From positions 310,001 to 374,000 of the forward strand of contig NZ_CP096032.1 of assembly GCF_023115425.1 (NCBI RefSeq): 64,000 bases of DNA. Reading direction: 5' to 3'. Below the pieces are notes generated by a model that searched no databases, was not told the DNA's origin, and saw nothing but the letters and a program-made list of their open reading frames with translations. This document shows, in pieces, positions 638-64,000 of the stretch; within the stretch, counting starts at the first letter, position 1; each line of letters begins with the position of its first letter. Source of the stretch: Synechococcus sp. A10-1-5-1 (lineage in GTDB: Bacteria; Cyanobacteriota; Cyanobacteriia; PCC-6307; Cyanobiaceae). Made by a program: the position numbers and the translations under genes.

Positions 638-1555
638 TTATCCCTGTTCGCCGCGAAGACTCCGCTGCATTAAGGCATGGACGGCCTCCTTCGGGCTACA
701 GCGCCCCTCTGCCAGGGCCACGACCTGCTGGCAAATCGGAAGTGCCCATCCGTGTCTCTGCCCCATGCCTGCGACCGCTTGGGCGGTCTTGTAGCCCTCC
801 ACAGTGGCACCGACACCCATCAGGGCCTCAGGGGCGGTTTGCCCACCTGCCAAGGCCAAGCCAAAGCGGTAGTTCCGGCTTAGAGGGCTGTTGGCCGTTG
901 CCAAGAGATCACCCAGCCCTGCCAAGCCATAGAGGCTGGCCTGGTCACCCCCCAGCTGCTGAATCACCAGACTCATTTCCGCCATGCCCCTGCAAAGCAA
1001 GGAGGCCTTGGCGTTGGCGCCAAGCTGCAGGCCATCACAGATCCCCCCTGCGATAGCCATCACATTTTTGAGTGCTCCAGCCAGCTCCACCCCAAGTGGA
1101 TCGTCGCTTCCATAGAGACGCAATTGGTCACTGCTGAGCTGTCTCTGCAGCTGTTCCACCAGCGGTTGGTCTTGACTTGCCAGGACGCTGGCTGCTGGAC
1201 AACCCTGGGCCAATTCACTGGCCAGGTTGGGACCGCTCAGCACCAGCAGACGCAGCTCCGGGTTCGCAACGTTCCACATCTGGCTGGCGGTGCGTTGGCA
1301 TTCAGGATCGAGTCCCTTGCTGCAGCTCACCAGGGGCACCTGCTGGTCCCACCGCGGGCCCAGCTCTGGTGCGAGCTGCTTGACCCCATCAAGGGCAAGA
1401 GCAACAAGCACCAGATCAGACCCCTGGATGACCGCCACAGGATCTCCCCCACTGCGACGACTCCAACTCCGAACTCTGTGCCCTTGCCGCTCAAAGAGGC
1501 CTGCCAGGGTGTGACCCCAGGCTCCAAGGCCCAGGACGCCAATGGCCAGAGACAT
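638..1555 (-). CDS. gpsA: NAD(P)H-dependent glycerol-3-phosphate dehydrogenase
   Basis: This cytosolic enzyme reduces dihydroxyacetone phosphate to sn-glycerol 3-phosphate for phospholipids and, in GG-making cyanobacteria, potentially for osmolyte synthesis. At 305 residues it is slightly short for the family. The dinucleotide-binding loop GLGAWG is at residues 9-14. The catalytic Lys lies in ALKNVMAI (K163), and the conserved LAGLGDLLATANSPLSRNYR block is at 211-230. Its start overlaps the end of the upstream DUF2237 gene by one base and phzF follows 6 nt after its stop, indicating an operon. It is the canonical GpsA of this window and a useful reference for the divergent relative at 56931-58472. 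Confidence 0.95.
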   Translation of the reverse strand: MSLAIGVLGLGAWGHTLAGLFERQGHRVRSWSRRSGGDPVAVIQGSDLVLVALALDGVKQLAPELGPRWDQQVPLVSCSKGLDPECQRTASQMWNVANPELRLLVLSGPNLASELAQGCPAASVLASQDQPLVEQLQRQLSSDQLRLYGSDDPLGVELAGALKNVMAIAGGICDGLQLGANAKASLLCRGMAEMSLVIQQLGGDQASLYGLAGLGDLLATANSPLSRNYRFGLALAGGQTAPEALMGVGATVEGYKTAQAVAGMGQRHGWALPICQQVVALAEGRCSPKEAVHALMQRSLRGEQG

Positions 1556-2594: not shown

Positions 2595-5500
2595 CTAAGC
2601 GGAGAAATAACGGGCCTGACTATGCAATGCGACGAGGGCTGTGGTGCTCTGCTCCGGCTCCAACTGGTCGCTTTCATCCATGCTCAGCCCAATACGCTCA
2701 CTGCCCAGCCAGCTCAGTTGCTGACGGGAATCAGGCACATTGGGGCAGGCCGGATAGCCAAAGGAATAGCGGCTGCCGCGATAGCGCTGGGCCAGAACAT
2801 CCCGCAGGGGCATCTCCGCAGGGTCGGGGTAACCCAATTCACTGCGAATGCGGGCATGGACCCACTCAGCCAGGGCTTCAGCCATTTGCACACCAAGCCC
2901 ATGGAAGTAGAGGTAATCGCTGTATTGATCTCCTTTAAAGAGCTCTTGGGCGAACTCCGTGGCTCGCTCACCCATGGTCACGGCCTGCATGGGCAGGACG
3001 TCAGAGGCTCCGGGGGCTAGATCGCGGTAGAAATCGGCAATGCAGTAGCGGTTGCCGGAGCGTTGGCGAGGCAGCTCAAAGCGCCCCAGTTCGATCTGGC
3101 GCTCCTCGGGATCGAACACCACAAGAGCGTTTCCATCCCTGCCGCAGGGGAAATAGCCATAGGCCACTCGAGGGGTGAGTAACACCTCGTCAATGCAGCG
3201 TTGTTTCCAGTGCTGGAGGACCGGCTCGGCCTTCTCCGCCAACATCGCTTCGTAGTCCTCTCGGGACTGGCCCTGGGCCTTACGCAGCTGCCACTGACCA
3301 GCGAAGAGGGCATTGCGATCCAGGAAGCCAAAGACCTCCTCGATATCGATGGTGTACTCGAGGAGGACCTGGCTTCCCCAGAACGGAGGGGTCAGCGCCT
3401 GTTCCTCCGGGACGGTGTCTGAGCGCTCCGTCGTGACGGTTAGAGCCGCAGCTCCGGCGCTTTCCGCTGCGGGTGCATCAGCGGAGGAATCGGAGCGGTC
3501 GACCTCGTTGACGTTTTCGAGACCCAGTCCATCGGGGATCGACCCAAGGAAACCTTGGACGTTGTCCCACTGCTCGTCCGCCTTGGCCGAGACAAGGGCG
3601 TCCATAAACCGAAGATCTGCGAAGGCATCCCGCCCGTAGATCACCTGCCCGCCGTAGACCTCGCGGCAGTCCTTGTTGACAAAGCGAGGGGTCAGGGCCG
3701 CTCCGCCAAGGATGACAGGAACATTGATCCCCGCATCGTTGAAGGCCGCGAGATTGTCCTTCATGAAGGCTGTTGATTTGACCAACAGTCCGCTCATGGC
3801 AATGCAATCGGCGTTGTGTTCTTGCTGGGCTTCAATGATCGCCTCAACAGGCTGTTTGATCCCCAGGTTGATCACTTCATAACCGTTGTTCGTCAGAATG
3901 ATGTCGACAAGGTTCTTGCCGATGTCATGGACATCACCCTTGACCGTGGCGATTAAAAACTTGGCCTTAGCTGAACTCTCGCCTTCCACCTTGTCCATCA
4001 AGGGTTCGAGGAAGGCGACGGCTGACTTCATCGTCTCGGCACTTTGCAGGACGAAGGGCAACTGCATTTGGCCTGAACCAAAGAGCTCACCAACCACCTT
4101 CATGCCATCCAGCAAATAGGTATTGATGATCTGGAGTGGTTGATAGGTTTCAAGTGCGATTTTCAGCGCATCTTCCAAACCAATGCGCTCGCCGTCGATG
4201 ATGTGTTGCTTCAGACGCTCCTCGATGGGCAGATCGGTCAAGGACGGACCGGAAGCTCTCGCCTCCTTTGTTGAGACCCCTTCGAACAGGGTGGTCAGTT
4301 CGGTGAGGGGGTCATAGACGCAGACTCCATTCTCAAAGCGCCTGCTGTCGTTGATCAGGTCTCGGCAGACCTGTTGGTGCTCCTCACTGATCTTGATCAG
4401 GGGGAGGATCTTGGCGGGGCTGACAATCGCCGCATCCATGCCCGCCTCACAGCAGTCATGCAAAAAGACGGAGTTCAGGACAATCCGAGCCGCTGGTGAG
4501 AGACCAAAGCTGACATTGCTGACTCCAAGGACGACATGCACGCCCGGGAGGTTTTCGCGAATCATGCGAATCGCCTGAACCGTGGCGAGTCCGTTTTCGC
4601 GGTCCTCTTCGATGCCCGTTGAGATCGGTAGCGCTAGAGGGTCGTAGAAAATCTCGTGGGCGGGAATGCCGAATTCCACGGCATCGCGATAAGCCCGTTG
4701 GGCGATCGCAAACTTACGCTCCGCAGTCCGGGCCATCCCCTCTTCGTCGATGGTTCCGACCACCACGGCGGCGCCGTAGTTGCGTGCCAGTTCGAGCACC
4801 TTGAAAAAGCGCTCGTCGCCGTCTTCGTAGTTGGTGGAGTTGAGGATGCACTTACCACCGGCCACCTTGAGGCCGGCTTCCATCTTTTGCCACTCCGTGG
4901 AGTCCAGCATCAGTGGAAGGTTGACGTTGGTCACCAAACGGCTCACCAACGCATGCATGTCGGCCTCACCATCGCGACCGACGTAGTCGACGTTGACGTC
5001 GAGAACGTGGGCATTCTCCTTGACCTGGCCCCTGGCCACCGACACCAGGCCATCCCAGTCCTCTTCAGCGAGCAACTCCCGAACTTTCTTGGAGCCGCTG
5101 GCGTTGAGACGCTCACCAATGATCAGGAAGGAGTTGTCCTGCTGGTACGGGGTGACGCCGTAAATCGAGCTCGCCGACGGCTCATACTGCAGGGCTGGCC
5201 GGGGTGCCTCGGGATCGGGCTCAACACTGCCACGCACGGAGCGTTCAGCCGGCTTCAACTCTGAAGCGAGCTCAGCAAGAGCTGCGATATGGGCCGGTGT
5301 GGTGCCGCAGCATCCACCGATGACCTGAACACCCAGGTCTTCAACGAAGTGCATCAGTTGCATCTTCATCTCAGTAGGGGTGAGCCGGTAGTGCGCCACA
5401 CCCCCAATGTTTTCGGGTAATCCCGCGTTCGGGATACAACTCACCACGAAGGGACTGTGGGCCGAGAGGTAGCGGACGTGCTCCTTCATCTGCTCGGGGC

Positions 5501-51431: not shown

Positions 51432-52901
51432 GTGCCTAGCTCTTTCGTCCTGGTCTATCACCGCTCTCCATTTGACGAGGTCATCGGCGAGGACGGCACC
51501 AGGCAGTGGCAAGACCAGAAGAGCCCAAACGGCATCATTCCGACGCTGCGAAACCTGTTTCGCTCCCATCCATCCGGCACCTGGATTGCCTGGCGTGAGA
51601 ACGAGGATCCCGCTGCTGAAGACGAAACCTTGACAATTGATGAGCCGATCCAAATCCGTTTGAGACGGATTCCGCTTCGCCAGGAGCAGATCGGCAGTTT
51701 CTATCACGTCACTTCAAAGGAATCGATCTGGCCAATCCTTCACAGCTTCCCTAGTTTTTTTGAGGTCAATAACGCCGACTGGCAGACCTTCAGTGAAGTC
51801 AACCAGCGGTTCGCCGAAGCGGCCTGCAACGAAGCGGCTCCAGGGGCGTCCATCTGGATTCACGACTACAACCTCTGGTTGGCACCGGGCTTTATTCGGG
51901 CCCTACGACCGGATGTCAAGATCAGCTTTTTTCACCACACCCCTTTCCCAAGCAGCGATGTCTTCAGCATCCTGCCGTGGAGGGAAGAGATCATCGAGAG
52001 TCTTCTTTGCTGCGATGCGGTGGGTTTTCACATTCCCCGCTACGCCGAGAATTTCGCCCGGGCGGCCTCCAGCTTGTTGCCGGTCAAGAAGGGCCCCAAA
52101 TCGGAGATTGCCGATCACTTCATGCCCTGTGGCAGCGCCTTGGCCCAGCCCGACGCCACGCCATGGCTTGAGCACAACGGCCATCGCGTCAAGCTCGTCT
52201 CGACGCCGGTCGGCACCAGTCCAGATGTGATTCGCGAGCTCAGGGATTCCAAGCCCGTCCAGGAGCTAATCCAAGAGATTGAGACCAACACCAAGCGCGG
52301 CCGGACCTTGATCCTCTCCGCTAGCCGAGTGGATTACACCAAAGGCAACGAAGAACTGCTTCGAGCCTATGAGCGACTGCTGGAGCGCAATGAGGCGATC
52401 CACGGCCAGGTGGTGTTGGTCCTGGCCTGTGTAGCCGCCAACACCGGAATGAAGGTCTACGAAGACACGCAGCGCGGGATTGAGGAAACCGTTGGCCGGA
52501 TCAATGGCCGCTTCAGCAAGATCGATTGGGTCCCCATTCGTCTCACAACGCAACGTATTCCCTACGAGGAGATGGTGGCCTGGTTTGCTGCTTCGGACAT
52601 CTGTTGGATCACGCCGTTGCGGGATGGCCTGAACCTGGTAGCCAAGGAATATGCGGCGGCCCGCAAGGGAAGAGGCGGAACGTTGGTGCTCTCGGAATTC
52701 ACCGGTGCCTCCGTAGTGATGAAGGGAGCCGTTCTCACCAATCCCTACTCCCACAGGCGCATGGATGAGGCGATCGACAAGGCCCTAGGCCTCTCGCTTC
52801 AGGATCAGGAGCAACGAATGGCATCGATGGCGGCTTCGGTGGATCAACTCAGCGTTGATCATTGGGTCAAAGAACAACTGGAGGCGATTGAATCGCAGTG
52901 A
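51432..52901 (+). CDS. ggpS: glucosylglycerol-phosphate synthase
   Basis: GgpS (glycosyltransferase family 20) joins ADP-glucose to sn-glycerol 3-phosphate to make glucosylglycerol phosphate, the first step of the main salt osmolyte in moderately halotolerant cyanobacteria. The 489-residue length fits. WIHDYNLWLAPGFI, FFHHTPFPSSDVFSILPWR, SRVDYTKGNEELLRAYERL and WITPLRDGLNLVAKEY parallel trehalose-phosphate synthase motifs, while the DYTKG and N-terminal VLVYHRSPFDE are GgpS-like. The start is GTG. The ggtB ATG overlaps the stop as TGATG. Confidence 0.95.
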   Translation: MPSSFVLVYHRSPFDEVIGEDGTRQWQDQKSPNGIIPTLRNLFRSHPSGTWIAWRENEDPAAEDETLTIDEPIQIRLRRIPLRQEQIGSFYHVTSKESIWPILHSFPSFFEVNNADWQTFSEVNQRFAEAACNEAAPGASIWIHDYNLWLAPGFIRALRPDVKISFFHHTPFPSSDVFSILPWREEIIESLLCCDAVGFHIPRYAENFARAASSLLPVKKGPKSEIADHFMPCGSALAQPDATPWLEHNGHRVKLVSTPVGTSPDVIRELRDSKPVQELIQEIETNTKRGRTLILSASRVDYTKGNEELLRAYERLLERNEAIHGQVVLVLACVAANTGMKVYEDTQRGIEETVGRINGRFSKIDWVPIRLTTQRIPYEEMVAWFAASDICWITPLRDGLNLVAKEYAAARKGRGGTLVLSEFTGASVVMKGAVLTNPYSHRRMDEAIDKALGLSLQDQEQRMASMAASVDQLSVDHWVKEQLEAIESQ

Positions 52902-54157
52902 TGAACCAGCGCCGTTGGCTGCTGGGTTTGGCCTGCGTGCTGGGCAGCCTGGTGCTGGTGCTGGGGCTTTGGGCCAAACCAGCACGGGAGCCCGTTTCGA
53001 TCCTGATGCCGGCTCCATTTGCCGATGCCACGGCTGAACTCGTTGAGGAGTTCAATCGCGAGCACCCAGAGATTGCCCTCACGGTGACCCGTGGACCTCT
53101 AGAGACAGAAGCAGTCTCAGACCTGGCGATCAGCAGCCTCTTGCTGGGCAACAGTCCCTACGACGTCCTGCTGATGGACGTCACCTGGACACCGAAATAT
53201 GCCAGGGCTGGCTGGCTTGAGCCCTTGGAAGCCTGGCTCGGAGCCGACGCCCTGGTCGATCTCGCCCCTGGAGCCGAACTGGGCAACAGCTTTGACGGCC
53301 ACCTCTGGCGCTTCCCCCTCGTGGCCGACATGGGCCTGCTGTTCTGGCGCACCGACCTGATGGACAGCCCCCCCAGGACACCCGCCGAACTCGAAGCCAT
53401 CAGCCGGTCTCTTCAAGAAAAGGGGCAAGTCCGCTGGGGCTACGTCTGGCAAGGCCGTCAATACGAGGGGTTGAGCTGCACCTATCTGGAGGTTCTACGG
53501 GGCTTCGGCGGTCGCTGGCTCCGCGATGGCTCACCGGACCTCAACAGTGAAGCCGCGATTAAGGCCAGCCAATGGCTACGCCAACTCGTCGATCAGGGCA
53601 TTACGCCTCCTTCCGTAGCCAACATGGCCGAACCGCAAGCGCTTCAGGTCTTTGAAAGTGGTGATGCCGCTTTGATGCGGAACTGGCCCTACGCCTGGGC
53701 CGAACTCAACAAGGAGGGTTCTGCGCTGGCTGGGAAAGTCGGAATCACAACCATGGTCAGCCTCCCGAATGAACCCCATGTCGCAACCCAGGGCAGCTGG
53801 GGGTTCTCCGTCCTTTCAAGCTCCAAACACAAGCAAGCCGCCATCGAGGCACTGCAGTTTTTGACCAGCACCGCCGCCCAAAAACAACTCAACTTGAACT
53901 GGGGCTACACACCAACGCGCCTGAGTGTCTTCAACGACCCAGAACTGGTCCGCGCCAATCCGATCCTGCCGGAATTGCAATCAGCACTGGCCGATGCCGT
54001 ACTCAGACCGCTGACACCGATCTATGCCCAACTCAGTGACCTGCTCTACCGCGAGGTGAACACCGTGATCACCGGTGAGATCGCAGCGGCGCCGGCCATG
54101 GACAACCTTCAGCGCAACAGCCTTCAGCTGGAACGTTCCACACGAGGAGTGCAGTAA
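52901..54157 (+). CDS. ggtB: glucosylglycerol ABC transporter substrate-binding protein
   Basis: The 418-residue product is a family 1 extracellular sugar-binding protein with an N-terminal signal or anchor segment (LLGLACVLGSLVLVLGLWA). Typical blocks are AELVEEFNREHPEIALTV, YDVLLMDVTWTPKYARAGWL, LFWRTDLMDSPPRTPAELE and GSWGFSVLSSSKHKQAAIEA. GgtB delivers GG (and sucrose or trehalose) to the permeases, recovering osmolyte that leaks across the membrane. Assigned through position directly after ggpS and before two permease genes. A GTG one codon upstream is also possible. Confidence 0.92.
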   Translation: MNQRRWLLGLACVLGSLVLVLGLWAKPAREPVSILMPAPFADATAELVEEFNREHPEIALTVTRGPLETEAVSDLAISSLLLGNSPYDVLLMDVTWTPKYARAGWLEPLEAWLGADALVDLAPGAELGNSFDGHLWRFPLVADMGLLFWRTDLMDSPPRTPAELEAISRSLQEKGQVRWGYVWQGRQYEGLSCTYLEVLRGFGGRWLRDGSPDLNSEAAIKASQWLRQLVDQGITPPSVANMAEPQALQVFESGDAALMRNWPYAWAELNKEGSALAGKVGITTMVSLPNEPHVATQGSWGFSVLSSSKHKQAAIEALQFLTSTAAQKQLNLNWGYTPTRLSVFNDPELVRANPILPELQSALADAVLRPLTPIYAQLSDLLYREVNTVITGEIAAAPAMDNLQRNSLQLERSTRGVQ

Positions 54158-55048
54158 ATGATCCGCTGGCGCCAACAGTTCTGGCTCCTGCTGCCGGCCC
54201 TGGGATTGCTCAGCCTGATCTTCCTGGTGCCCATTGGTCACTACCTCTGGTTAAGCACCCAGACCCAGACGGTGCTGACAGAACTTCAACCCATTCCTGC
54301 GGGGACCGCCCAATGGGTCCGGCTCTGGAACGACAGCCGCTTCTGGCAGGACGCCTGGCAAACCCTTCGCTTTGCTGGTCTCTCGGTGAGCACAGAAATG
54401 GTCCTAGGGCTGGCGATCGCCTTGCTCCTGAACCAGCCGTTGCGAGGCAAGAGCAGCTTGCGAATGATCAGCCTCTTGCCCTGGGCTCTGCCAACAACGG
54501 TGATGGCCTTGGGCTGGCGCTGGATCTTCAATGATCCATACGGCCCGATTAATCAAGCTCTGCACTGGGTAGGAATGGAACCCGTGGCCTTTCTGGCCAA
54601 CCCATCAATCACCTGGATCGCCACGGTTTGGGCCGATACCTGGAAAACGACCCCGTTTGTGGCCTTACTTCTGCTGGCGGGCCTGCAGAACATTCCCCGC
54701 GATCTCTACGAGGCTGCGCAGTTGGAGGGGGCATCGGCCTGGCAATCCCTCTGGAGGATCACGGTGCCTCTGCTGACGCCCTATCTACTCATTGCACTCG
54801 TTTTTCGCCTCGCCCAAGCGCTGGGAGTGTTCGACTTGGTGCAAGTGCTGACGGGAGGAGGTCCAGCGGGCAGCACGGAAAGTCTGGCGCTCTACGCCTA
54901 CCTGAATGCGATGCGTTTCTTGGACTTTGGCTACAGCGCCACCGTCATGCTCGGCGCCTTCGCCGGACTCTTGGTGCTCTGCGCAGGACTCGCGGGGCTC
55001 TGGTGGTTCAGCAGCGGGCGCGAGGCCATGACAGGAGGTGACCTTTAG
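54158..55048 (+). CDS. ggtC: glucosylglycerol ABC transporter permease
   Basis: MalF-type sugar permease of 296 residues with about six membrane helices. The coupling loop is LYEAAQLEGASAWQSLWRITVPLL, and the family ending contains QVLTGGGPAGSTESLALYAY. The ATG immediately follows the ggtB stop, and the stop overlaps the ggtD start (TAGTG). Together with GgtD it forms the channel of the osmolyte importer. Confidence 0.93.
   Translation: MIRWRQQFWLLLPALGLLSLIFLVPIGHYLWLSTQTQTVLTELQPIPAGTAQWVRLWNDSRFWQDAWQTLRFAGLSVSTEMVLGLAIALLLNQPLRGKSSLRMISLLPWALPTTVMALGWRWIFNDPYGPINQALHWVGMEPVAFLANPSITWIATVWADTWKTTPFVALLLLAGLQNIPRDLYEAAQLEGASAWQSLWRITVPLLTPYLLIALVFRLAQALGVFDLVQVLTGGGPAGSTESLALYAYLNAMRFLDFGYSATVMLGAFAGLLVLCAGLAGLWWFSSGREAMTGGDL
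55033..55039 (+). promoter_or_regulatory. strong ribosome binding site for ggtD
   Basis: AGGAGGT lies 8 nt before the GTG at 55048, inside the end of ggtC. It decides the ggtD start, which shares one base with the ggtC stop. Confidence 0.8.
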
Positions 55049-55839
55049 TGGCACGCCTGGCCCTCTTGATCTGGAGCCTGGGCCCGATGCTCTGGCAGCT
55101 CTACACCTCCTTTCGGCCGACCGCGGCCCTGACTGGCTCAGGCAGTGGAGGCTGGACCCTCGATCACTACAGGCAGCTCCTCAACGGTGAACCACCGTTT
55201 TTGACCTATCTCCTCAACAGTGGGATCGTCGGGTTGAGCAGCACACTCTTGACGCTCCTTCTGGCGATCCCCTGCGCTTACGCCCTCAGCCGTATGCAGG
55301 CCCATCGTGCTCGCAACATCAGCGTCCTGGTGGCTGCTGCAGCGGCATTCCCAGCCGTGTTGCTGTTCTTGGCGCTTCTGGAGGTGGCCCGCGACTTCCA
55401 TCTGTCGAACAATCTCCTGGCCCTCAGCCTTCCCTATGCCGGGCTGTGCTTGCCCTTGGCGATCCTGCTGCTGCAGGCAGCCTTCCGCGATATCCCCGTA
55501 GATCTGGAAGAGGCCGCCCTGATTGAGGGCATGAACCTCTGGCAACGCCTGCGCTGGGTGCTCCTTCCACTAATGGCCCCAGCCATCTCCAGTGCAGCAC
55601 TGCTGATCTTCATCTTCTGCTGGAACGAATATCCGATCGCTCTGACCTGGTTGAGTCGGGCCGACCTACTCACCCTGGCCCCAGCCATTGCCCGCATTGC
55701 CGGCTCCTCGATCTTCTCTGTTCCCTATGGAGCCTTTGCCGCCGCCACCGTGCTGGGCAGTGTGCCGTTGGTGCTGATCATGTTGCTATTTCAACGTCAG
55801 ATCATCAGCGGCCTCACCCAAGGGGCCATTAAGGGATAG
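55048..55839 (+). CDS. ggtD: glucosylglycerol ABC transporter permease
   Basis: MalG-type sugar permease of 263 residues, with LWSLGPMLWQLYTSFRP at the start, about six membrane helices, the coupling loop LEEAALIEGMNLWQRLRWVLLPLM and the closing VLIMLLFQRQIISGLTQGAIKG typical of MalG-like proteins. Start is GTG after a strong Shine-Dalgarno. ggtA follows 39 nt later. Confidence 0.93.
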   Translation: MARLALLIWSLGPMLWQLYTSFRPTAALTGSGSGGWTLDHYRQLLNGEPPFLTYLLNSGIVGLSSTLLTLLLAIPCAYALSRMQAHRARNISVLVAAAAAFPAVLLFLALLEVARDFHLSNNLLALSLPYAGLCLPLAILLLQAAFRDIPVDLEEAALIEGMNLWQRLRWVLLPLMAPAISSAALLIFIFCWNEYPIALTWLSRADLLTLAPAIARIAGSSIFSVPYGAFAAATVLGSVPLVLIMLLFQRQIISGLTQGAIKG

Positions 55840-55878
55840 CCCTGAACCAAAGCTCGACCACGTTCTCTTCGCCCATTG

Positions 55879-56922
55879 ATGACCTCCTCCAGCCCTGCTC
55901 GCTCTGGTCTTGTTCTGAGCCAGCTTTGCCGCCGGGTGGGGCAGCAGACCCTGCTGCAGAACCTCAGCCTCGAGGTCGCCCCCGGCGAAGTTCTGGCATT
56001 GCTGGGGCCGAGTGGTTGTGGCAAGAGCACCACCCTGCGCTTAATCGCAGGCCTGGATCCCGTGAGTGGCGGAGACATTGAACTGGCTGGAGTGACCATC
56101 ACACCGCTACCGCCTGCCCAAAGGAATGTGGCGATGGTCTTCCAGAGCTACGCCCTCTACCCCCATCTGAGCGTCGCCAAGAACCTCAGCCTGGGGCTCG
56201 AACTCAGGCGAGTCCCCAGACCAGAGATCGAGGGAGAATTACAACGGGTCCTGGCCCTACTTCAGCTTGAAAGCTGCAGGGACCGCAAGCCCGCAGAGCT
56301 CTCGGGGGGGCAACGGCAGCGGGTCGCCTTGGCTCGAGCACTCTTGCGTAAACCCGCCTTGTTTTTGCTCGATGAGCCCATGAGCAACCTAGATGCTCAG
56401 CTCAGAGAGGACCTCCGAGGCGAATTGCGCGGTCTTCTGCGCAGCACCGGTGCACCGGTGGTCTACGTGACCCATGACCAACACGAGGCCATGGGGCTAG
56501 CGGACCGTATCGCCGTCTTGAAGGCAGGGGAGCTGCAACAGGTCGGCAGCCCCGCAGAGCTCTACCGAAACCCACAGAACCAATTCGTCGCTAGTTTCCT
56601 TGGAAGTCCTTCGATCAACCTTTTACCGCTCAATCCTGGTGAATTGGTTGGCCTGAGGCCTGAGCATCTTGAGGTCGCCGATGCTTCAACCCCCCTCAGC
56701 AGCACGTACGCAGCAGTGGATGCCCATCGCGAGCACTTGGAGTGGCTTGGGGATCGCGTCATCAGCCACTGGAGAGTGCGGGATACCAGGGTGAAGGTTC
56801 TCTCCGATGCCCAAAGCAGCAGCGCAGAACTGGCACAAGAAAGCAACCGCCGGCTCCAATTGCGCTGGAGACGGGAGGATGAGCTCCATTTCGAGCAATC
56901 CAGCGGTCGGCGACTCCGCTAA
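55879..56922 (+). CDS. ggtA: glucosylglycerol ABC transporter ATPase
   Basis: MalK/MsmX-type ATPase of 347 residues. Walker A is GPSGCGKST, the Q loop is in AMVFQSYALYPHLSVAKNL, the signature is LSGGQRQRVALAR, Walker B is FLLDEPMSNLDAQLRED, and the switch His is in YVTHDQHEAMGLAD. A C-terminal regulatory (TOBE-like) domain begins near residue 240 (VGLRPEHLEVADA). In Synechocystis ggtA is separate from ggtBCD; here all four are contiguous. A TTG one codon upstream (55876) is possible. Its stop and that of the next, convergent gene lie in a small palindrome. Confidence 0.92.
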   Translation: MTSSSPARSGLVLSQLCRRVGQQTLLQNLSLEVAPGEVLALLGPSGCGKSTTLRLIAGLDPVSGGDIELAGVTITPLPPAQRNVAMVFQSYALYPHLSVAKNLSLGLELRRVPRPEIEGELQRVLALLQLESCRDRKPAELSGGQRQRVALARALLRKPALFLLDEPMSNLDAQLREDLRGELRGLLRSTGAPVVYVTHDQHEAMGLADRIAVLKAGELQQVGSPAELYRNPQNQFVASFLGSPSINLLPLNPGELVGLRPEHLEVADASTPLSSTYAAVDAHREHLEWLGDRVISHWRVRDTRVKVLSDAQSSSAELAQESNRRLQLRWRREDELHFEQSSGRRLR

Positions 56923-56930
56923 GGAGCGCC

Positions 56931-58472
56931 TTAATCCCAGACCGTTTCGATCACGTTCATCGCCTGTAGGTAGGCCGGAATGTCATCGCTCGTCGCGGAC
57001 TCGTCGTCGACAAAGCTGTCACCACTACCCGATCGACGCGCCAGGTCAGCAACGACCGCACTCACCACCAGATCAACCGCTGCGGGATTGTCGAGGTTTT
57101 GCAGCGCTTCGGCATAGCGCCGGCTGTGGGTCGGGCGGACAGACTCCTGGCAGTAGTTGCTGAGCTCACGGCTCTCCGTCATCACAGAGAAGGCGGATTG
57201 CTTGGAGTTTTGACGGCCAAAGATGGCCATATAGAGCAAGTTGATCAGTGAGGCGTCATGCAGGGGAATGCCGTACTGACGAACGATCTGAGGCCAGTAG
57301 CGCAAAGAACGCAGGCCCTCGAGGCCCCCCTTCGATAAACCTGCCTCATCGCACCAGGCCTCGAACTCTTCGACATTCGCCGGACAGCGGCCGCACTCGC
57401 GCATGCGAGTGGCCAGCACAGCACCCGCTTGGAAATTCCGGGTCGGACTGCCGGCGGTTGGCAGCATCATGCTGCCGCGCACATCGGCAACCATGGCCGT
57501 CAATTGCGAAAAGGTGTGGTCACGGACCTTCTCCATGTCGCCATCCCTGACCAGGGCAGCCTCGATTCGCTGGACCCCATAGCCCAGTTCAGTCAATGCA
57601 ATCGGCTGACGGTGATAGAGGCGTTGGCGATCGGTGCGAGCCATTGACACGGTTGCCGCCTGGTCCAGGCACTGCTCGAGCAGCAGGGTCAACAATGTGG
57701 GCAGAACCCCAGGGTTATCCCTGTGAAAGGTGTAGCCAAATCCCGCAAAAATCGAGGCCATGTTTTTGGCGGCCTTGATGTATTGCCCTTCAATGTTGTG
57801 CACCCCAGCGGAGACCTGGAGGTTGGGGGAGAGGCGATCCAGCAGACGCGCACCCAGGAGTGCCGTCAGGGCATTGGGATGACAGAAATTCGCCGTGAAA
57901 CTATCAAGCGGATTGCGCAGGGCTCCATGCCGGTGAAACCCCGTGAAAAAGCCCAAGTTCGGGGCTTTTTGGCACAACACATAGGCCTCATTCGAGATCG
58001 GATCGTGGGTGAAAGAACCGGCCAGACAAGCCAAGACGACGTGCTCACGACCCAGCTCCTCCCGCAGTCGCAGAGCCTCTTGAAGGTCTTCCTCGATGTG
58101 GTTGCTGTTGGCGCTGAGCACCACCAACTCGCAGTGCTGAATCAAATGACCAAGGTCATTTGGAATCTGGTGACCCGCCTGGGCATGGGTACCCATGCGC
58201 TCCATGGTGGCGCGATGCTCCGGGTCCATCCCTGAGAGCTCCTCGGCCTTGAACGCCCCAAGGATCTGACGACCAGCACGAGGAGCCAAGAGCAACCGAG
58301 ACCCATCGGTTTGCATCGCGCAGTTGTACGCCAACGAGGCTGGATACAGCCCAACGCTGTAGAAGCCCACCTTTCCCTCTTCCAGCGCGATCAGGCGCCT
58401 TCGGATCCGTTCAGGGTCAAGGTTGGATTCGAAAAAACCGTTCTGCAAGATCACAACTTGGCCTCCACCCAT
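56931..58472 (-). CDS. uncharacterised GpsA-like dehydrogenase-fold protein in the GG cluster
   Basis: The 513-residue product has no family I can name. Against the gpsA of this window, it shows an N-terminal strand-loop-helix KVGFYSVGLYPASLAYNCAM (residues 34-53), where GpsA has the GxGxxG loop. Next comes DLGHLIQHCELVVLSANS (106-123), like the GpsA strand that reads LVLVAL. GQYIKAAKNMASIFAGFG (229-246) resembles ALKNVMAIAGGI around the GpsA catalytic Lys, with K236 in that place. The C-terminal ~210 residues have no counterpart. The frame opens at 58640, but the ATG at 58472 is more plausible. It sits antiparallel between ggtA and stpA. A dehydrogenase role on glycerol-3-phosphate-type substrates is inference only. 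Confidence 0.75.
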   Translation of the reverse strand: MGGGQVVILQNGFFESNLDPERIRRRLIALEEGKVGFYSVGLYPASLAYNCAMQTDGSRLLLAPRAGRQILGAFKAEELSGMDPEHRATMERMGTHAQAGHQIPNDLGHLIQHCELVVLSANSNHIEEDLQEALRLREELGREHVVLACLAGSFTHDPISNEAYVLCQKAPNLGFFTGFHRHGALRNPLDSFTANFCHPNALTALLGARLLDRLSPNLQVSAGVHNIEGQYIKAAKNMASIFAGFGYTFHRDNPGVLPTLLTLLLEQCLDQAATVSMARTDRQRLYHRQPIALTELGYGVQRIEAALVRDGDMEKVRDHTFSQLTAMVADVRGSMMLPTAGSPTRNFQAGAVLATRMRECGRCPANVEEFEAWCDEAGLSKGGLEGLRSLRYWPQIVRQYGIPLHDASLINLLYMAIFGRQNSKQSAFSVMTESRELSNYCQESVRPTHSRRYAEALQNLDNPAAVDLVVSAVVADLARRSGSGDSFVDDESATSDDIPAYLQAMNVIETVWD

Positions 58473-58527
58473 CCTGACGGCCCAGGCGGACCCATGGGAG
58501 GGTGTAGGGCAGCTCGACGGCGAATCC

Positions 58528-59733
58528 ATGGCGCGTCTCTCCCTGAACGAACTACAGGAGGAGATCAGCGCCGACCGCGACATCCTGCTCATCCAAGACC
58601 TCGATGGCGTTTGCATGCCGCTGGTGCGCGACCCGCTCACTCGGGTCCTTCCGCCTCAGTACATCGAAGCCGTAGCGAGATTAGGCGACCGATTTCGCGT
58701 CCTGACCAATGGCGAACACAGTGGTGCCCGCGGGGTGAACCGGCTGGTGGAGCAGGCCCTCGGACCGAGGCGAGATCCCGCCACCGAGGGGCTCTATCTA
58801 CCGGGGTTAGCGGCGGGGGGGGTCCAATCGCAAACAGGCCACGGCCAGATCAGCCATCCAGGGGTGAGTCAGGCGGAACTGCAGTTTCTGCAGACCGTCA
58901 CTGCCCAGCTTGGCAACGGGGTGCGTCAAATCATTGAACAGATCAGCCCCAGCTGCGCAGCAGAGGAGCTCGAGCAGCTGAGCCAAGCAGCTGTTCTCGA
59001 CAACGAACTCTCACCAACCCTCAACCTGAACGTTCTCTTTGCTGGCCTGTGCCCAGAGCCCGATCAGCAGCGTCAACTGCAAGAGCTGAGCCTGCAGCTG
59101 CTTGAGACCATCGAGAGGCAAGCGCAGCAGCAGGGTCTCGGCGACTCCTTTTTCCTACACCTCGCCCCCAATCTCGGCAGCCAAGACGGCAAGGAATTGC
59201 TCAAATGGGCGAGCCGTGAGCATCGCGGCACCAGTGACTTCCAATTCATGCTCCGCGGAGCCGTGAAGGAAGCCGGACTTTTGGTGCTGCTGAACCAACA
59301 CATCGCTAGGCAAAGCGGCCGCGCCCCCCTGGGGGCTGACTTCAATGTCAGAACGGCCCCCAGATCGGCCGAGGCCCTGCTCGCCTTGGCACAAGAGAGC
59401 ATTGCGCCAGAGGAGATGCCGACCTTGGTCGGCATTGCCGACACCATCACCTCCGAGAGGCTGATGGATGGGAATCAACAGTGTTGGAGACGAGGCGGAA
59501 GCGATCGAGGCTTCTTGACTCTGTTGCAAGAAATCGGCCGGGCGTTCGGAAGAACCAACCGGGTGGTCCTGGTGGACAGCAGTGGGGGCGAATTGGATCG
59601 CCCCAGCCTTCAGGATCCAGAGCTCAGAGGTCTGAGCGATCCAGAGGATCCCCTACAGCTGGATGTCCTGGTGCCAGGGGGACCGCGGGCCTATGTCCAG
59701 TGGTTCAACGGACTGGCAAGCAACGTCTTCTAA
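58528..59733 (+). CDS. stpA: glucosylglycerol-phosphate phosphatase
   Basis: StpA removes the phosphate from glucosylglycerol phosphate, completing osmolyte synthesis. The 401-residue product has LLIQDLDGVCMPLV (D24 and D26 as the DxD nucleophile pair), RVLTNGEHSGARGVNRLVEQ, LYLPGLAAGGVQSQTG, HPGVSQAELQFL and DFQFMLRGAVKEAGLLVLLN, all strongly matching the Synechocystis protein as I remember it. The frame is open from 58423, but the ATG at 58528 fits. Divergent from the GpsA-like gene with 55 nt between starts. Confidence 0.93.
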   Translation: MARLSLNELQEEISADRDILLIQDLDGVCMPLVRDPLTRVLPPQYIEAVARLGDRFRVLTNGEHSGARGVNRLVEQALGPRRDPATEGLYLPGLAAGGVQSQTGHGQISHPGVSQAELQFLQTVTAQLGNGVRQIIEQISPSCAAEELEQLSQAAVLDNELSPTLNLNVLFAGLCPEPDQQRQLQELSLQLLETIERQAQQQGLGDSFFLHLAPNLGSQDGKELLKWASREHRGTSDFQFMLRGAVKEAGLLVLLNQHIARQSGRAPLGADFNVRTAPRSAEALLALAQESIAPEEMPTLVGIADTITSERLMDGNQQCWRRGGSDRGFLTLLQEIGRAFGRTNRVVLVDSSGGELDRPSLQDPELRGLSDPEDPLQLDVLVPGGPRAYVQWFNGLASNVF

Positions 59734-59794: not shown

Positions 59795-61543
59795 ATGCCA
59801 GAGGGGGCCAGCAGGACACAAACCTGGCCCCCAGCACCGGGGCAACATCCCTGGTGGGATGGGGCGGTTATCTATGAACTGATCCCCCGGTGTTACAGCG
59901 ATTCCGATGGGGATGGGATCGGGGATTTCGGCGGTCTCACCAAACGTCTGGGCTACCTGCGCTGGCTCGGGGTCGATGCGATCTGGATGACCCCGATCTA
60001 CCCGTCTCCCCTGCGGGATGGGGGGTACGACATCACCGACTTCACCGATATCCATCCGGAGCTTGGGGACCTCGACGCGTTTCATCGCTTTATCGAAGCC
60101 GCCCATGCCCATGGGATCCGGGTGGTCATTGACCTGGTGTTGAACCACACCAGTCAGCTTCACCCCTGGTTTCAACGGGCACGTTTTGCTGAACGGGGCA
60201 GCGCCGATCGCGACTTCTATGTCTGGCGAGACGATCCCGACGGCTACAAGGATGCGCCTGTCCTCTTTCGCCACTTCGAGGACTCCAATTGGTCCTGGGA
60301 TCCGATTGCACAGCAGTACTACCTGCATCGTTTCCTGCATCACCAACCGGACCTCAACTACGACAACCCCGCCGTCCAGGAAGCGGTGCTTCAGGTCGTG
60401 GACTTCTGGTTAGCCCGTGGGATCGATGGCTTTCGGCTGGATGCCATTCCCTTTCTCTTTGAGCGAGAAGGAACCCGTTGTGAGGGTCTACCGGAAACCC
60501 ATGCCTTTTTAAAAACCCTGCGCCAAAGGGTAGATGCCTACAGCGGGGCGAACCCTGGGCGCGACATTCTTCTGTTGGCTGAAGCGATTCAGCCGGTCGA
60601 TGAAGCGATGCCGTACCTCGAAGACGGGGAACTGCATGCGGCGTTTAATTTCGCCCTCACCGCCCATCTCTTCGCCTCTGTAGCCCATGGCGAAACCAAG
60701 GGACTGAACCGATTTCTCAAGGAAATCAGCAACCTGGACTGCGGCCGGGGCTGGGCCCTTCCGCTCCGGAACCACGATGAACTGTGGCTTGGTGATGGCC
60801 ATCTCGTACCTGAGGAGGTCATTCACTGGGTGCGCCATGGGCTGCCCGCCGCCCATGGCCATTGGCTGAACTGGGGAATCAATCGCAGGCTGGCACCACT
60901 CTTGAACGGAGATACCAGGCCCAACATGGCGCTCCATGCCCTGCTCTACAGCCTGCCGGGTATGCCATGCGTCTACTACGGCGATGAGCTCGGAATGGGG
61001 GACTGGCCAGGACTGCGAGACCGGGACCCCAATCGCACTCCCATGGCCTGGAGTCCGGATCGCAACGGTGGCTTTTCCATAGCCCCTGATCCACTTCTGG
61101 TGCTGCCGCCGATTACCGCGCCTGGTTACGACTACCGCGTGATCAACGTTGAGGTTCAGAAGTCGCTTAAGGGGTCGCTCCTCAATTGGCATCGGCACAT
61201 GCTGGTGAGCCGCAAGCTGCTGCCGGCCCTGAAGCATGGCGATTTTGAACTGCTGCCCAGCCATCACCCGAGCGTGGTCAGCTTCATTCGCCGCTGTGAG
61301 GCCATGACTGTGCTCGTCGCCGTCAATCTGAGTGGCACTGGTGCCTCAACCGAGATCGACCTCAGTCGTTGGGAAGGGGAGCGAATCCGCGAACTGCTCT
61401 GGGGGTGTGAATTCCCAGAAGCCTCGAGTGATTGGTTCGTCTACCTGCAGGCCTACGGCTTTGGCTGGTGGTTGATCGGGGATATGGAACTCGCCAGCAA
61501 CAGTGACTCTGCAGCCGGCGTGAGCCGTTCCGCTTCGGCCTGA
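59795..61543 (+). CDS. trehalose synthase-like GH13 enzyme
   Basis: The 582-residue product is a GH13 protein closest in pattern to trehalose synthase (maltose alpha-D-glucosyltransferase). It has YELIPRCYSDSDGDGIGDFGGL, the nucleophile D216 in DGFRLDAIPFLFE, the acid/base E263 in LLLAEAIQP and D328 in LRNHDELWL. The EREGTRCEGLPETHAFLK stretch is typical of TreS. There is no attached maltokinase domain, and no other trehalose or glycogen genes are near. Its place beside stpA makes an activity on glucosylglycerol or sucrose possible; the substrate is not shown by sequence. The last 91 nt overlap glpD. Confidence 0.88.
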   Translation: MPEGASRTQTWPPAPGQHPWWDGAVIYELIPRCYSDSDGDGIGDFGGLTKRLGYLRWLGVDAIWMTPIYPSPLRDGGYDITDFTDIHPELGDLDAFHRFIEAAHAHGIRVVIDLVLNHTSQLHPWFQRARFAERGSADRDFYVWRDDPDGYKDAPVLFRHFEDSNWSWDPIAQQYYLHRFLHHQPDLNYDNPAVQEAVLQVVDFWLARGIDGFRLDAIPFLFEREGTRCEGLPETHAFLKTLRQRVDAYSGANPGRDILLLAEAIQPVDEAMPYLEDGELHAAFNFALTAHLFASVAHGETKGLNRFLKEISNLDCGRGWALPLRNHDELWLGDGHLVPEEVIHWVRHGLPAAHGHWLNWGINRRLAPLLNGDTRPNMALHALLYSLPGMPCVYYGDELGMGDWPGLRDRDPNRTPMAWSPDRNGGFSIAPDPLLVLPPITAPGYDYRVINVEVQKSLKGSLLNWHRHMLVSRKLLPALKHGDFELLPSHHPSVVSFIRRCEAMTVLVAVNLSGTGASTEIDLSRWEGERIRELLWGCEFPEASSDWFVYLQAYGFGWWLIGDMELASNSDSAAGVSRSASA

Positions 61544-63015
61544 TCGAGAAAGCCAATCCGGCTTCTCCGATTGAGCAGATCAGCTGCTGTCTTCGCCCAT
61601 TCAAACTGGATGTTGTAGCGCCACTCCGCCACACAAATGGGCACCACGGGGCTGAGGGGTGTCGTTTCAGAGGCATCCAGTCCCTGCTGGAGCACCTGCT
61701 CGGCTTGCAGGCCGTAATTGGCGATCAGATGGTCGATTTGCTGATGTTGGAGCGCACCACGCGGCACCACACACTCGAGCCGCGCGCGCAGGTCTGAAAG
61801 ATCAGCCGTGGTTTGCTCTGGGGATTGGGCAGCTCCCAGGAGCGGCATGGGGTCGGGAGCAGAAAGCGTCTGCCCCAGCTGGCCAGCGATGGCTTTCAGG
61901 GCATCAACGGCCAAAACTCTGCAGGTGGTCCACTTGCCACCAAGAAGGCTGATCAGACCGCAATCAAGCTGCTCAACTTCATGTTCACGAACCACCTTGC
62001 TGCTGCCGCGCTCGGAGTCCGGCTGGATTAAGGGCCGACCACCGGCCCACCGGCTGGTCACTGTCAAGTTGGTTTGGCCCGGGAACCAGCGCCGGAGGTG
62101 ATCCAGCAGGAACGCCTCCTCGGCATCGGAGACCGTGGTCGCTTCCGCAACCCTGCAGGGGGTATCGGTGGTACCCACCAGTGTTCTGCCTTGGAAGGGC
62201 AGCACAAACATCACACGACCATCACTGGTCTTGGGAATCAGCAGGCCGACACCGCTTGGACAGAACTGCTCTTCGAGAACCAAATGGACACCACGACTCA
62301 CCAGCAGCCGCGGCTGGCAGTTGGGCTCCGCCAGGGCACGGAGGCTGTCGGCCTGGATACCCGTGGCATTGACCACACAGCGAGCCAACCAGTGGCTCGT
62401 GGAGCCATCGGGCTGACGGGCCGTGACGCCAACCACCTTGCCCTGCTCCAGCTCAAAACCAACGACCGCGCAGTCCCGTTGGACCACTGCACCGGCTGCC
62501 TGGGCCGTCAGCAGCAACAGCAGATTCAGTCGTGCATCGTCGAATTGACCATCGCTGTAAAGCACAGCACTATGGCGATCAGAATTCAGGCCAGGCAGGA
62601 CCTGTTGCAGCTGCTGGCGGTCCACACCACTGCTGGGCTCAAGACCAGCTGAGCCAGCCAATAGGTCATACATCCCCAACCCCACTCGGAAGTAGGCCTG
62701 CTCCAAGGGCCCCTGAGTGGGCAGGGCTATGCGCAGGGACTGGGCCAAAAAGGGAGCTTGATCGATCCAGTACTGCCGCTCAGCCAAGGCCTCCCGCACC
62801 AACTTCAACTGGGCTGCGTCGAGTTGCTTAAAGGCCAGCTCGAGATAACGAACACCCCCATGCAGAAGCTTGGTGCTGCGGGAACTCGTGCCCTGGCCCG
62901 GATCGCCAGCCTCGAGCAACGCCACGCGCAAGCCACGACGCACGGCCTCATAGGCCAGGGCGGCGCCACTACTGCCGCCGCCAATGATCAAGAGATCAAA
63001 CCGTTCCATCGCCAT
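61453..63015 (-). CDS. glpD: FAD-dependent glycerol-3-phosphate dehydrogenase
   Basis: GlpD oxidises sn-glycerol 3-phosphate to dihydroxyacetone phosphate at the membrane, passing electrons to quinone. The product of 520 residues has the FAD loop LLIIGGGSSGAALAYEAVRRG, EAGDPGQGTSSRSTKLLHGG, a YFRVGLGMYDLLAGSAG block, LISLLGGKWTTCRVLA and C-terminal RRSRIGFLDQAEAE. ATGs at 63036, 63015 and 63009 are possible; 63015 is preferred because GGAG lies 5 nt before it. It overlaps the glpK stop, and its 3' end is antisense to the TreS-like gene for 91 nt. Confidence 0.94.
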   Translation of the reverse strand: MAMERFDLLIIGGGSSGAALAYEAVRRGLRVALLEAGDPGQGTSSRSTKLLHGGVRYLELAFKQLDAAQLKLVREALAERQYWIDQAPFLAQSLRIALPTQGPLEQAYFRVGLGMYDLLAGSAGLEPSSGVDRQQLQQVLPGLNSDRHSAVLYSDGQFDDARLNLLLLLTAQAAGAVVQRDCAVVGFELEQGKVVGVTARQPDGSTSHWLARCVVNATGIQADSLRALAEPNCQPRLLVSRGVHLVLEEQFCPSGVGLLIPKTSDGRVMFVLPFQGRTLVGTTDTPCRVAEATTVSDAEEAFLLDHLRRWFPGQTNLTVTSRWAGGRPLIQPDSERGSSKVVREHEVEQLDCGLISLLGGKWTTCRVLAVDALKAIAGQLGQTLSAPDPMPLLGAAQSPEQTTADLSDLRARLECVVPRGALQHQQIDHLIANYGLQAEQVLQQGLDASETTPLSPVVPICVAEWRYNIQFEWAKTAADLLNRRSRIGFLDQAEAERLTPAAESLLLASSISPINHQPKP

Positions 63016-64000
63016 GCCACTCCAAACAACGCTCAACCGCCTGATCCCAACGGCGTCGCCAGCGCTCCCGCTCGGCCTCGGTTCTCTGCGGGTTCACTTG
63101 GGTTGAGGACTTGCGGATGGTCGCGGCGATGGACTCGAGATCACTCACGACATCGACGCACTCACCGGCCATCAGCGCCACCCCAAGGGCCGTGGATTCC
63201 AGGTTGGCCGGTCTCACCACCTGAACAGCTGCACTGTCGGCCTGGGCTTGGAGCAAAACCGCAGAAGCGGCGGCTCCCCCATCAACGGCAATCGTTTGCA
63301 GTGGAGCTCCCAGGGCCTCCGCGGCCCCCCGCAACAAACCGGTCACAGCCAAGGCGATCCCCTCCAGGGCGGCCCTGGCAATCTGCGGAGCACCGGTGTC
63401 GCGCGTCATCCCAATCAGCAACCCCCGGGCATTGGGATCCCAGTGGGGTGATCCCCAGCCGGTGAAGGCCGGCACGAGCATCAGCTCACCAGCACTTGCA
63501 ACCTGCGAAGCCAGGGCATCAACCTCCGCGGACTCGCTGATGATCCCGAGACCATCACGGAGCCACTGGATCACCGTCCCGGCATTAAAGAGGCTGCCCT
63601 CAATGCAGTAGGTGGTGCTGCCATCGCGATTGCTCCAACCGACGGTGCTCAGGAGACCTCCTGAGGCCCGTTGCGGTTGTTGCCCGCAATTGACTACAAG
63701 AAAAGCACCGGTGCCGTAGGTGCATTTGGCCTGACCCGGTTGGTGGCAGAACTGGCCGTAACTGGCGGCCTGCTGATCACCGAGCATCGCCGTAATCGGA
63801 ACACCGCCAAAGGGCAGCCCATCGGCAATCACCCCGAAGGCGCTGCGGGTCGGCAACAGATCAGGAAGTGCAGCGGTGGTCAGGCCAACACGCTGGACTG
63901 CCTCAGGCAGCCAACTCAACTGCTCCAGATCCAGCAAAAGGGTGCGACTGGCATTGCTGATGTCCGTGGCATGACGCGTTCCTCCGGTTAGGTGCCACAG
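62996..64000 (-). CDS. glpK: glycerol kinase, 5' end beyond window
   Basis: The 334 visible residues are the C-terminal two-thirds of GlpK, which phosphorylates glycerol. The frame runs through base 64000 with LTGGTRHATDISNASRTLLL, so the start lies outside. Family motifs are GLPFGGVPITAMLGDQQAA, KCTYGTGAFLVVNCG, LMLVPAFTGWGSPHWDPNARG and the ATP-site IAVDGGAAASAVLLQAQAD. The stop lies inside the beginning of glpD on the same strand, so the pair forms an operon. Glycerol released by GG breakdown could be recovered this way. Confidence 0.95.
   Translation of the reverse strand: MWHLTGGTRHATDISNASRTLLLDLEQLSWLPEAVQRVGLTTAALPDLLPTRSAFGVIADGLPFGGVPITAMLGDQQAASYGQFCHQPGQAKCTYGTGAFLVVNCGQQPQRASGGLLSTVGWSNRDGSTTYCIEGSLFNAGTVIQWLRDGLGIISESAEVDALASQVASAGELMLVPAFTGWGSPHWDPNARGLLIGMTRDTGAPQIARAALEGIALAVTGLLRGAAEALGAPLQTIAVDGGAAASAVLLQAQADSAAVQVVRPANLESTALGVALMAGECVDVVSDLESIAATIRKSSTQVNPQRTEAERERWRRRWDQAVERCLEWHGDGTV

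Follow-up and report, generated by a model that had tools for sequence, protein, structure and literature searches.

Gene X and the glucosylglycerol cluster

The window analyzed here, a stretch of 64,000 nucleotides from Synechococcus sp. A10-1-5-1, contains a gene cluster in the order ggpS, ggtB, ggtC, ggtD, ggtA, X, stpA, GH13, glpD, glpK. The glucosylglycerol-phosphate synthase gene of the GT20 family, ggpS (51432..52901, plus strand), matches PF00982 and is named from its position and from the initial annotation. The genes ggtB, ggtC, ggtD, and ggtA (52898..56922, plus strand) encode an osmolyte ABC transporter, and ggtA (55876-56922, plus strand) is the neighbor of X on the side of lower window coordinates. 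X is an open reading frame of 513 codons plus stop at 56931-58472 on the minus strand, convergent with ggtA and divergent from stpA. The latter gene (also ggpP; 58528..59733, plus strand), encoding glucosylglycerol-phosphate phosphatase, matches PF09506 (Salt_tol_Pase) with an E-value of 6.7e-155 and is linked to X by co-occurrence and divergent adjacency; its start at 58528 is a choice made in the present analysis. A scan of the intergenic region between the two divergent genes (58449..58527) found no sigma-70-like promoter. Beyond stpA lie a GH13-type glycosidase gene (59795..61543, plus strand, PF00128), a gene for a glpD/glpA-type FAD-dependent glycerol-3-phosphate dehydrogenase (61453..63036, minus strand, PF01266 and PF16901), and a glycerol kinase gene, glpK (62996..64000, minus strand), which runs past the end of the window and is an open reading frame named by reading its sequence. 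A classical gpsA is located at 638..1555 on the minus strand, and the same genome thus carries both GpsA and X.

The open reading frame between ggtA and stpA is present as initially annotated, as are the motifs SVGLYPAS, LVVLSANS, and AKNMASI quoted for X and the motifs GLGAWG and LKNVMAI quoted for the GpsA at 638-1555. The length of 513 residues is less likely to hold. The open reading frame itself extends to an ATG at 58472, and its codon 9 is a TTG at the position where most relatives have their start codon; the start-aligned codon at 76 X loci is ATG in 54, TTG in 5, GTG in 1, and another codon in 15, and is off the contig in 1. X therefore likely begins at 58448, and the probable coding sequence (56931..58448, minus strand) has a TTG start and encodes a protein of probably 505 rather than 513 amino acids. 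Residue numbers below refer to the 513-residue reading frame.

Conservation of X and its association with stpA

X is a real, conserved gene. It occurs in 99 of 201 sampled genomes of its own family, Cyanobiaceae, in 50 of 386 genomes of a phylum sample (one of the 50 outside the family), and at 76 loci in a genome-contig collection, and its bearers include marine Synechococcus, Cyanobium, Prochlorococcus, Leptolyngbya, Acaryochloris, Xenococcus, and other cyanobacteria. The window X and a diverse selection of 44 of these loci align with a mean column identity of 72%. The description of X as a protein of no recognized family stands: neither Pfam nor NCBIfam gives a match at E<=10, PDB sequences give none at E<=10 with either a single sequence or a profile as query, and no mention of X was found in the open-licence literature searched. 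An unrecognized family is accordingly defined here as one lacking a Pfam or NCBIfam match and a mention in that literature.

Four X loci are labelled as Gammaproteobacteria MAGs, and their neighbors match those of picocyanobacterial loci. Among viral contigs no phage-borne X was confirmed, the 46 pattern matches containing no relative, and phage records contained no match. The reading frame is broken by a stop or in pieces at G050:C4:30469-31974, at G069:C3:16045-16937, and at loci L103 and L104, reflecting either decay or assembly error.

X tracks stpA more closely than ggpS. In the family sample stpA is found in 104 of 201 genomes, or 103 when the weak match in G051 (E 7.5e-4) is not counted as present, while ggpS matches occur in 81; 76 of these count as full length, with the fragments in G069 and the weak matches in G096, G118, G143, and G200 left out. 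X and stpA occur together in 97 genomes, X alone in 2, and stpA alone in 6. Full-length ggpS accompanies X in 61 of the 99 genomes and is missing in 38, 27 of them near-complete; conversely, ggpS occurs without X in 15 genomes, 3 of them near-complete. The rationale that X supplies the substrate of GgpS would thus be only part of the explanation: X is not mainly a gene of genomes without ggpS, and the co-occurrence survey ties it to stpA (97 of 99). Placement of the two genes in 96 genomes is divergent within 1 kb in 68, divergent within 12 kb in 14, far apart in 6, and on different contigs in 8. Where both could be placed in genomes lacking ggpS, 173-326 bp separate the ends of the two matches in 37 of 37.

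Of 25 X genomes provisionally placed outside the family, 23 have stpA, against 26 of the 328 non-family genomes in the phylum sample, a comparison that ignores phylogeny, leaves the weak match in G525 uncounted, includes locus L047 of uncertain membership, and counts one genome (G270 and G557) in both groups. The 26 background genomes with stpA indicate that most stpA genomes outside the family do without X. At 21 loci viewed outside the picocyanobacteria the neighbors vary by lineage and are shared only among close relatives, so the adjacency of X and stpA is seen only in picocyanobacteria. The complete genome of SynAce01 (L067, sampled as G083 and G562) contains X, GpsA, and ggpS and gives no stpA match; G102 and G180 carry stpA without X, and GpsA is present in both.

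Selection on the pair was estimated in 22 genomes lacking ggpS, keeping sequence pairs with dS between 0.1 and 2. The median dN/dS is 0.22 for X (98 pairs) and 0.25 for stpA (96 pairs, same genomes), so both genes are maintained in the absence of ggpS, under purifying selection.

The StpA proteins themselves fall into two types. In an alignment of 94 sequences, chosen by hand and with L101 and other picocyanobacterial genome-contig loci placed as ggpS-bearing by assumption, 19 have C61, C97, E100, and C157 in the numbering of the window StpA, namely 18 of the 22 from ggpS-less genomes plus L101. The other 75 have N61, G97, and L or I157, with Q100 in 71 and E100 in 4. The carriers of the altered form (L136-L141, L218, L220-L224, L226-L230, L233, and L101) are mostly ggpS-less genomes of Prochlorococcus type and look like one clade, perhaps reflecting one event; the exceptions among ggpS-less StpA are L219 and L225 (genus g29) and L231 and L232 (incomplete genomes). 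The three cysteines and the glutamate suggest metal binding or a new substrate. Among other neighbors, members of one protein cluster of the APH-family kinase type (PF01636, from a scan of three of the proteins) were found close to X at 35 of 76 loci, at several of these immediately downstream (e.g., L101:9587-10738, L046:4920-6038, L139:8691-9848). On the far side of stpA from X, a radical SAM protein with DUF3641 is encoded at 27 of the 76 loci (e.g., L101:5147-6540; one scanned) and a Fur-family regulator at 25 (one protein scanned).

Predicted fold and active-site motifs

A model of the window X was generated with AlphaFold2 from an alignment of 45 sequences (the window X plus 44 loci out of the 76), with pLDDT 82.8 and pTM 0.84. 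The first 21 chains retrieved with Foldseek are all glycerol-3-phosphate dehydrogenases (GPDHs), and on VIA re-alignment the top 16 entries are GPDHs with Z-scores of 21.0-27.4. The best match, Coxiella GpsA (3k96), aligns 308 residues with an rmsd of 3.3 and covers model residues 30-443. A second model, for a Prochlorococcus X that is 56% identical to the window X, was built from 30 sequences overlapping those of the first alignment (pLDDT 77.4, pTM 0.76) and places the same 16 GPDH entries on top with Z-scores of 22.0-25.9. Ketopantoate reductase and other 6PGDH-like dehydrogenases share the combination of a Rossmann and a helical domain, but ketopantoate reductase, the next family for the window model, reaches only 14.5, and the next match for the Prochlorococcus model 14.2, below all listed GPDHs. 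Both a Rossmann domain and the C-terminal helical domain of GPDHs are present in the predicted models, and X is thus predicted to adopt the GPDH fold, in keeping with the Rossmann-type fold initially proposed; these structural statements are predictions from a shallow alignment. Opine dehydrogenases of the metallophore type were considered and rejected, since the pseudopaline and yersinopine dehydrogenases match in Foldseek only with E about 1e-4 and TMt 0.33; a search for opine dehydrogenases in connection with Prochlorococcus found no relevant literature.

Structural alignments of X with GPDHs have 11-17% identity over about 310 residues. The surplus length of X, previously described as a single block of about 210 extra C-terminal residues, is instead divided between insertions inside the catalytic part, with an inserted segment around residues 280-345 that GpsA/GPD1 enzymes lack, and a C-terminal extension of about 70 residues. 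At the level of sequence, X has no significant similarity to the GpsA/GPD1 family (PF01210 plus PF07479). The profile comparison of X with cyanobacterial GpsA by hhalign yields a probability of 0.6%, which is not significant; among shuffled controls, 16 of 200 by column and 10 of 200 by block reach the alignment score, and the global mode returns a nonsense result. The fold claim therefore rests on the predicted structures. No other named family was found by profile.

The predicted fold and the order of the Lys-Asn, Asp, Arg-Asn, and Glu-Gly motifs are nevertheless shared with GpsA/GPD1. Invariance of these motifs was scored over 50 sequences, including 22 from genomes without a detected ggpS. 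K236-N237 (57762..57767, minus strand), the putative counterpart of the catalytic K163-N164 of GpsA, is invariant in 50 of 50, and its placement comes from a low-threshold alignment of the 50-sequence profile and from alignment by hand, while the 45-sequence profile does not reproduce it. D330, S334, R345, and N346 (57435..57485, minus strand), likewise invariant in 50 of 50, would correspond to D216, T220, R227, and N228 of the substrate and phosphate site; R345-N346 falls on R227-N228 in local low-threshold alignments with both X profiles, and D330 and S334 were placed on D216 and T220 by manual alignment, the GpsA threonine being a serine in X. E385-G386 (57315..57320, minus strand), the apparent counterpart of E253-G254, is invariant in 50 of 50 in a register obtained with both profiles.

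Other features set X apart. The dinucleotide loop GFYSVGLYP (residues 36-44; 58341..58367, minus strand), located from the alignment and the model, is flanked in the window model by a strand (35-38) and a helix (42-54), and the GxGxxG motif of GpsA is absent, its place being taken by SxGxxP, in which S39, G41, L42, and Y43 are invariant and P44 is present in 90% or more. In the manual alignment the lysine of the GpsA SKG motif, K80 (presumably equivalent to human K120), corresponds to A151, so that the second active-site lysine is missing. Further invariant residues are H180, R181, H182, and K233, and K233, three residues before K236, may compensate for the missing lysine. R65 and R68, which follow strand 2 and are also invariant, would suit NADPH as a cofactor. 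On present evidence X would work like a GPDH, yet it is not to be filed in the GPDH sequence family.

Complementarity with GpsA and the proposed role of X

A survey with a GpsA profile of 12 sequences (A2) found GpsA in 91 of the 201 family genomes, full length and with E <= 5e-115; short weak extra matches are confined to genomes that also have the full-length protein. Among the 131 near-complete genomes, 54 contain only X, 55 only GpsA, 20 both, and 2 neither. In this last pair (G013 and G073) stpA is at the very end of contigs of 3324 and 3231 bases, extending to 3230 in one and cut at 3228 in the other, and the usual place of X lies beyond the assembly. Neither gene was found in 33 of the 201 genomes, 31 of them outside the near-complete set. 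No GpsA match was found in 26 of 26 near-complete X genomes lacking ggpS that were searched; the 27th, G069, does have GpsA, and its X, stpA, and ggpS are each fragmentary. Of the 25 X genomes provisionally placed outside the family, 21 have GpsA and the other 4, which are drafts, do not. X and GpsA both follow the marine/freshwater split, and their complementarity may reflect few events; loss of GpsA may have been a single event in a marine ancestor, in which case the 54 genomes with X only are not independent.

Published annotations are consistent with this distribution. EC 1.1.1.94 is reported as not annotated for Prochlorococcus and WH7803 (PMC3369817), and WH7803 carries X (locus L043). 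In SC5.2 strains gpsA is described from freshwater and brackish members and the FAD-dependent glpA from marine ones (PMC9361551). The distribution of X and GpsA fits this published gap in gpsA and EC 1.1.1.94 in marine strains. In genus g98 (G342, G372, and G441), near-complete genomes contain no X and no intact GpsA match, two of the three having only short GpsA-like pieces with stops and the third no match, so another route to glycerol 3-phosphate (G3P) exists somewhere; inspection by eye around stpA in two of these genomes recognized no other G3P enzyme.

Taken with the predicted fold, these findings point to a role for X that we consider probable: a highly diverged NAD(P)H-dependent dihydroxyacetone phosphate (DHAP) reductase that is part of marine glucosylglycerol metabolism and has supplanted GpsA in marine lineages. 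Its reaction would convert DHAP into sn-glycerol 3-phosphate at the expense of NAD(P)H, with NADPH the probable cofactor. X would originally have been part of marine glucosylglycerol metabolism and have stayed with stpA, working beside GpsA in the window genome, in brackish strains of Cyanobium type, and in the majority of the cyanobacteria beyond the family that carry X. In marine Synechococcus and Prochlorococcus the classical GpsA would have been lost, leaving X as the best remaining candidate for de novo G3P synthesis, and X would have been kept after loss of ggpS because G3P is still needed for membrane lipids. In most marine lineages X thus looks like the general, and by implication essential, G3P dehydrogenase rather than an accessory enzyme. 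The dehydrogenase function proposed in the initial annotation gains support here indirectly, from complementarity with GpsA rather than from biochemical demonstration. Against a DHAP reductase, X keeps to genomes with stpA, an association not required of a general lipid enzyme, and the loop is altered, the lysine is missing, and the profile comparison with GpsA is insignificant; glycerol kinase and the glpA of marine isolates are possible other sources of G3P. A universal role is also opposed by the retention of GpsA in most X genomes outside the family and by genus g98, where neither X nor an intact GpsA was detected.

That X is only the dedicated G3P supplier of GgpS, an accessory beside an independent general supply by, for instance, glycerol kinase, is unlikely in view of the 38 of 99 X genomes without full-length ggpS (27 near-complete), where X is still under purifying selection, and of the 54 near-complete X genomes without a detected GpsA. 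The location of X inside the ggpS-ggt-stpA cluster of the window does speak for it, as do the X-bearing genomes reached through genome-contig loci, of which 29 of 32 have stpA and 29 of 32 ggpS, and the coexistence of X with GpsA in 22 of the 99 family X genomes. It is also favored by reports that ggpSP is present in two freshwater strains, CH-040 and ATX 6A2, and glycerol kinase in all brackish and marine isolates of that study (PMC9361551); the two freshwater strains bear X (loci L069 and L068).

A different substrate is improbable as well. X could reduce another phosphorylated ketone, larger than DHAP, with StpA dephosphorylating the product to a polyol or glycoside solute and with glycerol kinase or another enzyme providing G3P in genomes that have X only. 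Such a pathway would account for the tight pairing of X and stpA even without ggpS, for the four altered conserved sites of StpA in most ggpS-less genomes, for the loss of the K80 counterpart alongside invariant H180, R181, H182, and K233, and perhaps for the kinase-type cluster near 35 of 76 loci. It leaves the complementarity with GpsA to be explained, and the differences in X that parallel the split in StpA are five weak ones, the only sites that separate the altered-StpA lineages and none of them in a predicted active-site motif.

The pairing of a GPDH-type protein with a phosphatase in an osmolyte setting recalls the algal bidomain enzymes, one of which joins phosphatase and GPDH in Chlamydomonas (PMC7468427) and another of which, Dunaliella DsGPDH (6iuy), matches the predicted fold of X with a Z-score of 25.6. 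The algal enzyme shows that a phosphatase and a GPDH can act together, and the parallel with X and StpA is drawn by analogy. X and stpA differ from it in being two divergent genes, and in the phosphatase family (Salt_tol_Pase), and glycerol as their product would be hypothetical. It is quite doubtful that X both provides all de novo G3P in Prochlorococcus and in most marine Synechococcus and, where Prochlorococcus lacks ggpS, joins the altered StpA (Cys, Cys, Glu, Cys) as a prokaryotic version, split over two genes, of the algal GPDH-phosphatase, producing glycerol or a related solute from DHAP.

That X is a non-catalytic protein of GPDH fold, sensing G3P or NAD(P)H and regulating or scaffolding StpA, is very unlikely, because although the divergent X-stpA pair is kept over long distances, the dinucleotide loop is altered, and the lysine is missing, the remaining active-site motifs do not vary, the loop in its altered form is conserved and shows no decay, and X is retained where GpsA was lost.

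G3P is the backbone of bacterial phospholipids, and Prochlorococcus and marine Synechococcus are among the most abundant phototrophs on Earth. If X is a DHAP reductase that replaced GpsA, a conserved protein without a family would fill the G3P gap and let these abundant ocean cyanobacteria build their membrane lipids. X would then be a marker of the marine/freshwater divide and an example of an osmolyte gene taking over a core step of lipid synthesis.
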